Below, piece after piece: positions 27,890 to 30,638 of a DNA stretch of 64,000 nt. The notes beneath the pieces were generated by a model, which ran no database searches, was not told where the DNA came from, and saw only the letters and a list, made by a program, of their open reading frames with translations. Both the position numbers and the translations under genes were made by a program. How positions within the stretch are numbered: position 1 is the stretch's first letter; each line of letters opens with the position of its first letter. Source of the DNA: an uncultured Prochlorococcus sp. (GTDB taxonomy: Bacteria; Cyanobacteriota; Cyanobacteriia; PCC-6307; Cyanobiaceae); contig CACNWH010000002.1 of the NCBI GenBank assembly GCA_902624105.1, positions 1-64,000 of the forward strand, in the 5' to 3' direction.

Positions 27890-28789
27890 ATGAGTACAGA
27901 ACATTTATTACCTATTAAAGAATCAAAATTGGGGATCATTGGTGGGAGCGGTTTTTATTCTATAAATGGGATGGATTGCTCAAAAGAATTTGAGGTAGAT
28001 ACCCCCTATGGTAAACCCTCTGATGCAATAAGAATTTTTAATATTGGCAATTTAGAATTAGCTTTCATTGCGAGACATGGAAGAAATCATACATTTAATC
28101 CAACTCAAGTCCCTTATAAAGCTAATATTTGGGCCATGAGATCAATTGGCGTAAGGTGGATAATAGCTCCATCGGCGGTTGGTTCTCTTCAAGAACAAAT
28201 CCGTCCACTAGATATTGTCATCCCTGATCAATTTATTGACAGAACACATAATAGACCTGCAACATTTTTCAATGAGGATATAGTTGCTCATGTAATGATG
28301 GCAAACCCTTTTTGCACAAATTTATCAGGAATATTAAGTGATATTGGTGATAAGAATATTCCTTCAGGGAGGCAATTGCATAGAGGAGGTACTTATTTAG
28401 CGATGGAAGGACCTGCATTTTCGACAAGAGCAGAATCCAATTTATATAGACAATGGGGATGTTCAATAATAGGTATGACTAACCATACAGAGGCACGTTT
28501 AGCGAGAGAAGCGGAAATTGCCTATGCTTCTCTTTCGATGGTAACTGATTATGATTGTTGGAATCAAAAACAAGAAGAAGTATCTGTTGAAATGGTAATT
28601 GAAAATCTTAAGATTAATACTGAGGTAGCTAACAATATAATATACGAAGCAGCAAAAGTGATTGATACAAACAGACCAATAAGTAAAGCCCATCAATCTT
28701 TGAAAGATGGGCTAATGACTTCTAGGAATAGAGCATCAAAAGAGGCTCAATCTAAAGTTAGAATATTTACAGATAATTACTGGAATTAG
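27890..28789 (+). CDS. mtnP: S-methyl-5'-thioadenosine phosphorylase
   Basis: LGIIGGSGFYSINGMDCSKEF...RHGRNHTFNPTQVPYKANIWAMRSIGV; EGPAFSTRAESNLYRQWGCSIIGMT. Confidence 0.95.
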   Translation: MSTEHLLPIKESKLGIIGGSGFYSINGMDCSKEFEVDTPYGKPSDAIRIFNIGNLELAFIARHGRNHTFNPTQVPYKANIWAMRSIGVRWIIAPSAVGSLQEQIRPLDIVIPDQFIDRTHNRPATFFNEDIVAHVMMANPFCTNLSGILSDIGDKNIPSGRQLHRGGTYLAMEGPAFSTRAESNLYRQWGCSIIGMTNHTEARLAREAEIAYASLSMVTDYDCWNQKQEEVSVEMVIENLKINTEVANNIIYEAAKVIDTNRPISKAHQSLKDGLMTSRNRASKEAQSKVRIFTDNYWN

Positions 28790-28792
28790 GGG

Positions 28793-28996
28793 TTAACCTC
28801 CTGCACCAACTCCATTATAGGATCCCGCAAAGAATAAACCTACAACTAAGATTGCTGCTATACCTCCACCAGTAGCAATAAGCCATAAAGGCAATGAACC
28901 TTCAGTCCATCTTCTTTCCCATGCTATTGCTGGTCTACCATCAGGTAGTCTGTCTTTTATTCTGCCGTCAGGGGCTTTAAGGCCTTTGTTACTCAT
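28793..28996 (-). CDS. psbJ: Photosystem II reaction center protein J
   Basis: ...[40 protein letters not shown]. Confidence 0.97.
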
Positions 28997-29005
28997 AATT
29001 AAAAA

Positions 29006-29125
29006 TTAGTTGAAGAAATAACTGGAAAATAAAATTCCCAAAACCAAAATAAAAAGCACGCCTAAATAGAGGCTGGTGCGATTAAGTTCAACAGGAACTT
29101 TATTAGGATTTTCGTTTATTTGCAT
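29006..29125 (-). CDS. psbL: Photosystem II reaction center protein L
   Basis: Hand-translated: [39 protein letters not shown]; upstream of psbJ. Confidence 0.97.
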
Positions 29126-29233
29126 GATAAAAAGTTTACAATTTGGATTTACTAAAAAATAAAGCCAAAGAACTTCAATAATAAATAATTAATATTTGAT
29201 TTTAATTAATCAAAACCAAATAAAATTATTCAT

Positions 29234-29482
29234 CTATTGGGTTCGTAGATCTAGTTGAGCTTTAGCATCATATCTTTGTGTAACAACAGGGGCTTTTGAT
29301 TCAGAAGCTTGGAAGTAGCTATCTGGTCTTGGAGTACCAAATGCATCGTAAGCTAAACCTGTATAAACAAATAAGAAGCCAGAAATGAAGATTGCTGGAA
29401 GTGTTACTGCATGAACAATCCAGTATCTGACACTGGTTATTATTTCAAAGAATGGGCGTTCACCCGTTGAACCTGCGGCCAT
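29234..29482 (-). CDS. psbE: Cytochrome b559 alpha subunit
   Basis: [57 protein letters not shown]... Confidence 0.98.
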
Positions 29483-29621: not shown

Positions 29622-30638
29622 TTACCCTTTATACCTAAGTATGAATCCTCTTTCTCCAAGAATAAAACCTTTAGTTTCATTAAGTTCATTTTTATCTAAG
29701 AATACTATTTTTATGTAGTTAGTAGGTAATTTAGAAGCTACTGGATCAGAGCGCCAAGTTTGGCCTTCATCATCACTAAAAATCAAGGTTCCATTTCCTC
29801 CTCCTGCCCAAATATATCCTTCTGGATCCCAAGCCATATCTAAATAATTATATCCATTCAAAATTGGGATTATAGGCTTTGTCCAGCTCTCTACATCATC
29901 ACGATTATTATTAAATCTAATTTCAGCTCCTCTTGAGAGCATCCATAAATTTCCATCGGGTGCATATCCTATGCTTTGTACTCTCTTACTACTTGCTCTT
30001 TGATGAGCCACCCAAAGATTACTATTATTCTCAAGTGTAGAGAAAAAATTACCCAAACTGCTTACACTTACATATTTACCATCATTAGTTCTACGCAGAT
30101 CTCGAATACCTCCTGATCCTGATGAATCAACAACTATAGCCTCCCATGATTCTCCACTATTAGATGTTGAGTAAATCGCACCAGCGGTAGTAGCTAGTTC
30201 AGCAGAATCTTTGCCAATTGTGGTAATAAGGAATGGTTGCCCTGGTAACTTATTTCCTAAAGATAATCTCGTCCAATTCTTACCAGAGTCAACAGAATGC
30301 ATTACTAATGATGGTTGTCCAATTAACCATCCCTCATCTCCTTTGAAATCAATGTCAAGTAAACGGAAATTTTCCTCACTTGATAAGTTCAAGGATCTCT
30401 CTTCCCAATTAATTCCTCCGTCATTTGTTTCTAATATTAACCTGTTAGAACCAATCATAAAACCATGATTGTCATCAATAAAATCGACATCAAGAGCATT
30501 TGCTTGGTTTTCTAATTGGATAGGAACCCAAGGACTATTTTCTGCAGTTTTAACGGCTGAAGATGAACAGCTGCTAAGAACAAGACATAATAGTGATACA
30601 AAAATAAGATTTGTAAATCTAGATAAATTCTTTTTCAT
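29622..30638 (-). CDS. ycf48: Photosynthesis system II assembly factor Ycf48/HCF136
   Basis: Lipoprotein-like N-terminus plus beta-propeller repeats ([47 protein letters not shown]). Confidence 0.95.

Follow-up and report, generated by a model that had tools for sequence, protein, structure and literature searches.

In several lineages of Prochlorococcus, the most abundant photosynthetic microbe of the ocean, among them the iron-limited HNLC clade throughout its surveyed genomes, psbF (cytochrome b559 beta) is missing from the psbEFLJ operon of photosystem II (PSII) and psbY is missing with it, while the only PsbF-type protein left is a long form, encoded elsewhere, that has Asn where PsbF has its heme-ligating His. 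We think it probable that this unlinked long form replaces both psbF and psbY, and that PSII in these cells is built on a scaffold of PsbE and long PsbF that offers no more than one axial His and probably holds no heme, perhaps sparing iron. The case that led to this reading is a 64,000-nucleotide stretch (the window) of contig CACNWH010000002.1 from an uncultured Prochlorococcus, whose genome is a 1.10-Mb draft, 67% complete and in 49 contigs.

On the minus strand of the window psbE (29234..29482; 82 aa, heme His retained), psbL (29006..29125; 39 aa) and psbJ (28793..28996; 67 aa as called) are intact, as a preliminary description had it and as the Pfam and NCBIfam profiles used for psb gene identity bear out (PF00284/PF00283, PF02419 and PF01788, respectively). 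The interval between psbE and psbL (29126..29233, minus strand) is 108 bp long and, again as described, holds no PsbF-like frame, frame 1 reading MNNFIWF and a stop. Syntenic comparison, which the same description had proposed, places an intact psbF in an interval of 157–160 bp at this locus in related HL strains (HLI/HLII). The gene is likewise intact here in the relatives that we take to be MIT9312, MIT9301, MIT9515 and SS120. Upstream of psbE is a ycf48 (hcf136) homologue (29622..30638, minus strand), named from synteny (RubA-Ycf48-psbEFLJ; PMC4823308), and the convergent neighbour is a putative S-methyl-5'-thioadenosine phosphorylase-like (MTAP) gene (27890..28789, plus strand), named from sequence resemblance.

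The former place of psbF is taken by an AT-rich RNA hairpin directly 3' of the psbE stop (29181..29233, minus strand) and by a strongly conserved non-coding stretch 5' of psbL (29126..29180, minus strand; GAAGTTCTTTGGCTTTATTTTTTAGTAAATCCAAA). The TTTGATT...AATCAAA inverted repeat already noticed is confirmed and lies at the core of this larger hairpin, which spans window positions 29233–29181 and has a z of −5.8 (0/200 shuffles equally stable); z is −6.8 in G376, and the hairpin is weak in HNLC2-type gaps. The HNLC genomes have two types of psbE-psbL gap, which are mutually homologous (0/500 shuffles as good), and the stretch at 29126–29180 has a homologous stretch in HNLC2 (0/500 shuffles as good). 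In HNLC1-type genomes a strong hairpin followed by ~40 bp of near-invariant non-coding sequence occupies the psbF place. Hairpin and invariant stretch together are possible candidates for an mRNA processing or promoter element, and 29126–29180 may be a promoter or leader for psbLJ; consensus scans found no promoter excess in 29126–29180 and no intrinsic terminator in the psbE-psbL gap. We rejected a decayed psbF as the source of the gap sequence, the HNLC gaps resembling HL psbF no more than shuffles do.

A survey of 267 Prochlorococcus genomes and a targeted rerun found no canonical psbF in any of 11 HNLC genomes (G141 and G143, the others being AH-287 and AH-321 drafts). Outside HL the gene is missing at the locus in MIT1223, NATL2A, G056, G086, G088, G027 and G038, with gaps of 2–34 bp. 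We take G110 to be NATL2A (LLI; 1,842,899 bp). G003 is MIT1223 (LLVIII; 1,795,922 bp, as in Table 3 of PMC11559063). Whole-genome searches of the single-contig psbF-less non-HL genomes found psbE and the long form as the only matches to PF00283, and the same two genes are the only matches in the source genome, HNLC1, HNLC2, MIT1223 and NATL2A. The HNLC genomes, NATL2A and MIT1223 have the PsbE His, which is kept in all psbF-less genomes, and no PsbF-type protein that bears a His.

The observation that the window has no psbF-like sequence besides stands, but the genome does have a PF00283 match (C22:5348-5416), on another contig and inside the gene for the long form (C22:5141-5440). Canonical PsbF is a protein of ~44–48 aa encoded between psbE and psbL; the long form has 95–99 aa. 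Against NF002720 (cut-off 127) that of the source genome reaches 186.6 bits, that of NATL2A reaches 183.4 bits against NF002717, and the family also passes PF00283 (36–38 bits, cut-off 30). A PsbY-like N-terminus is joined by a ~40-residue linker to a PsbF-like C-terminus, the last 32 residues aligning with PsbF of solved PSII structures; AlphaFold places helices at 3–25 and 71–94 in a model of low overall confidence (mean pLDDT 62). Residues involved in packing within PSII are retained in the PsbF-like helix, among them the Arg that in known structures touches a heme propionate, but the axial His has given way to Asn and the adjacent Trp to Thr. In the axial column Asn stands in 111/111 long-form loci and His in 89/89 short PsbF, these being counts of fetched loci, some of which share one genome. 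The PsbF-like part is nearly invariant, and codon differences between the HNLC1 and HNLC2 long forms (42 synonymous and one non-synonymous, of 96 codons) demonstrate strong purifying selection. A possible relaxation of constraint where both genes are present (pN/pS 0.064 vs 0.038) was too weak to use, and a phage origin was rejected after no match was found in 50,697 phage records.

Canonical psbF and the long form occur together in MIT9312, MIT9515, SS120 and others, and MIT9301 has the canonical gene only. In most HLI/HLII strains and in SS120 the long form comes on top of canonical psbF; in HNLC, in the closed genome of LLI strain NATL2A and in LLVIII strain MIT1223 it is the only PsbF. We take PMT9312_RS06075 to be the long form of MIT9312. 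Transcription of this 'PsbF-like' gene has been observed, with a response that goes along with that of other psb genes (PMC6517427). Because the two forms coexist in MIT9312, MIT9515 and SS120, the long form is by its distribution a paralogue and not a moved psbF, so that the relocation entertained in the preliminary description fails for the C22 gene, in which Asn also replaces the heme His. The function of PsbF has probably been kept, since the genome holds a conserved paralogue elsewhere, and replacement of PsbF by the long form is well supported by genomics.

The surroundings of the long form have peculiarities of their own. One HL genome (G160; L147, L148) has two different long forms besides canonical psbF, and in MIT9312 a 61-aa ORF directly 3' of the long form (L073:1807-1992) resembles the PsbY-like N-terminus and has no PsbF part. 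A conserved neighbour with two similar segments (RF.AIWVLPI...; L063:1281-1877, L073:792-1205, L070:1290-1898, L335:858-1286) had no Pfam match where tested, and its segments faintly resemble the b559 helix. In LLI and LLVIII (L063:2465-3712, L278, L335) the gene beside the long form encodes a conserved membrane protein with no assigned family, and after it comes an FldA-type flavodoxin gene, clear in MIT1223 and in the LLI strain G056; this is possibly an iron-stress neighbourhood.

Standalone psbY was found in none of the 19 psbF-less genomes and in 31 of 39 genomes outside that set. The conserved psbY site 5' of trmFO stands empty in HNLC1, HNLC2, G000, MIT1223 and NATL2A and is filled in MIT9312, MIT1300, G053 and G016; in the LLI genome G056 (L310/L319) trmFO itself is split across frames with stops beside the empty site. 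The PsbY-like part of the long form is short, its first 26 residues, and stays under the single-sequence cut-offs (13.3 bits against the Pfam PsbY model, cut-off 24), and profile-profile comparison with PsbY (hhalign) gives 94% with an E of 1.4e-7 over 26 columns, a match that transmembrane composition can inflate. PsbY adjoins PsbE and PsbF in PSII (PMC4823308), and it is therefore structurally sensible for one PsbY-PsbF fusion to take over from the two single genes. Although few independent events underlie the co-loss, no other indirect evidence speaks as strongly for the long form filling both places in PSII.

On a tree built from Ycf48 and MTAP the psbF-less rows fall into a clade of LLI, LLVIII and G027, the HNLC groups, and G038. 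A single origin for all of them except G038 is rejected (AU p 8e-8), and a joint clade of HNLC1 and HNLC2 is not rejected (p 0.38). The simplest reading is that psbF was lost independently at least twice. One loss followed by regain in HLI/HLII, three changes by parsimony, is possible but awkward, because psbF and psbY would both have to return to their exact places.

The mechanism that we favour is that psbF was deleted from the operon and psbY was deleted too, that the long form, one unlinked gene, would substitute for both, and that PsbE and long PsbF would form a structural scaffold for PSII assembly, with no more than one axial His and usually no heme b559. Assembly of PSII depends on PsbE as well as PsbF (PMC9214863), so we have to assume that the one PsbF-family gene left does the work. 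How a missing ligand is borne differs between model organisms: H23A and H23M alpha mutants of T. elongatus have apo-b559 and normal PSII, so that heme-free b559 is tolerated, and in Synechocystis exchange of either His for any of eight residues (Gln included, Asn not listed) abolished photoautotrophic growth, with the exception of H22K alpha (PMC4709441). Some compensation must therefore exist in the psbF-less lineages. From the assembly requirement and the mutants together we infer a structural b559 scaffold, probably without heme, and the 'essential' b559 heme site looks dispensable in nature.

We put the chances at about even that several Prochlorococcus lineages carry out oxygenic photosynthesis with a PSII that lacks heme b559. 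A search for cytochrome c550 came up empty in the HNLC genomes and in MIT1223 (194 bits in the control, G009), and their PSII may therefore hold no heme at all; if so, this would be a completely heme-free PSII, the non-heme iron being its only iron. The low photosynthetic quantum efficiency reported for MIT1223 (PMC11559063) is compatible with a heme-free b559 and is not evidence for it.

The PsbE sequences show that a b559 ligand was lost a second time, independently, where the axial residue among fetched loci is His in 114 and Gln in 13. The Gln group comprises 11 genomes, including MIT1307 (G052; L080/L292; 2,032,419 bp, Table 3 of PMC11559063), and keeps the PsbF His; the residues beside the ligand are altered, SVRYWIIH becoming DIKFWVIQ or SIDFWVIQ with changes at the neighbouring Arg/Tyr, and a single clade for the group is not rejected (p 0.40). 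There would then be at least two routes to a heme-free PSII, PsbF His to Asn with gene replacement and PsbE His to Gln. A further change in PsbE, HAVTL to HAVAL (Thr to Ala, three residues past the axial His; L039, L238, L280, L248, L259), accompanies psbF loss in LLI, LLVIII, G027 and G038 and not in HNLC.

The benefit, if the scaffold is heme-free, would be one Fe fewer per PSII in iron-poor water. We take HNLC1 and HNLC2 to be HLIII and HLIV. HLIII and HLIV dominate low-iron waters, where shedding iron proteins has been proposed as a strategy (PMC10119275). Iron saving cannot be the whole story, because the long form is widespread in HLI/HLII outside the iron-poor clades, and LLI and LLVIII are not known to be iron-limited. 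Genome streamlining, drift or low-light adaptation may instead account for a real replacement that has nothing to do with iron, and this retains appreciable probability, short of even: both LLI and LLVIII belong to the low-light Prochlorococcus, whose genus is known for streamlined genomes (PMC11559063), but the HL clades that lack psbF are the iron-depleted HNLC ones, whereas HLI and HLII keep it, and MIT1223 and the LLI genome G056 have a flavodoxin gene near the long form.

Replacement by the long form might also leave the heme in place, bound by the PsbE His and by Asn, water or some other ligand, as a low-potential or high-spin b559 that is still redox-functional. The PsbE His and the propionate-site Arg of PsbF are retained, and Synechocystis H22K alpha kept its heme with one ligand displaced and grew. 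We nevertheless find a bound heme rather unlikely, as the conserved Trp beside the lost His has become Thr, removal of one His in T. elongatus left apo-b559 only, and the loss of the PsbE His in a separate lineage suggests a relaxed demand for heme. It is more doubtful still that PsbE homodimers supply both His while the long form is employed otherwise, for instance in assembling PSII or in protection from stress. That the PsbE His persists wherever psbF is gone would suit homodimers, and coexistence of the long form with a normal psbF in many strains implies that it has or had another role, but PSII assembly in model organisms needs both subunits, the same genomes have lost PsbY as well, a sign that the fusion is in use, and the PsbF-like part hardly varies.

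Among the options first offered for the gap, relocation, loss and artefact, the loss of the canonical gene holds. That psbF moved into the unassembled third of the source genome is highly improbable despite its incompleteness: the naive chance of missing the gene in all 11 HNLC genomes is 1.5e-7, and NATL2A and MIT1223, cultured strains with single-contig genomes that are 99–100% complete and psbE-psbL gaps of 29 and 34 bp, lack it as well. An assembly or sequence-editing artefact, conceivable for one draft in 49 contigs, can be set aside almost entirely, for the junction recurs in the ten HNLC genomes that include the psbE locus, with near-identical PsbE and gaps of 103–115 bp that are related but non-identical, among them the metagenome scaffolds HNLC1 and HNLC2 (G141 and G143; GL947594.1 and GL947595.1), and the two closed genomes show the same loss.

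If replacement by the long form is as we propose, a PSII cofactor would be added to the iron economy of the HNLC oceans, and natural, cultured strains without one heme ligand would make the question quoted from PMC12661325 testable with no engineered mutants. The long-form gene is already in NCBIfam, as 'cytochrome b559 subunit beta, long form' (NF002717/NF002720, an exception form), the same family as ours; the name is silent on the missing ligand, on coexistence with psbF and on the co-loss of psbY. In the full-text literature, with many subscription papers outside its coverage, we found no description of the ligand loss. The long form is like PsbF (TIGR01333, PF00283) in its C-terminal ~32 residues, including YP.FTVR and AL..P.VFFLGAI.AMQF, and unlike it in the Asn for the heme His, the Thr for Trp, ~64 extra N-terminal residues and a gene outside psbEFLJ. 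Another natural chain that joins a PsbF-like to a PsbY-like part is chain F of PDB 7ymi/7ymm (99 aa, named PsbY), in which, unlike the long form, the PsbF part comes first and in its aligned portion keeps the His. The engineered mutants (Synechocystis H22X; T. elongatus H23A/H23M alpha) lack one axial His as these lineages do, and PSII with apo-b559 is active in T. elongatus (PMC4709441, PMC9214863); those are point mutations made in the laboratory, most of which cost Synechocystis its photoautotrophic growth, whereas the Prochlorococcus lineages live in this state naturally.
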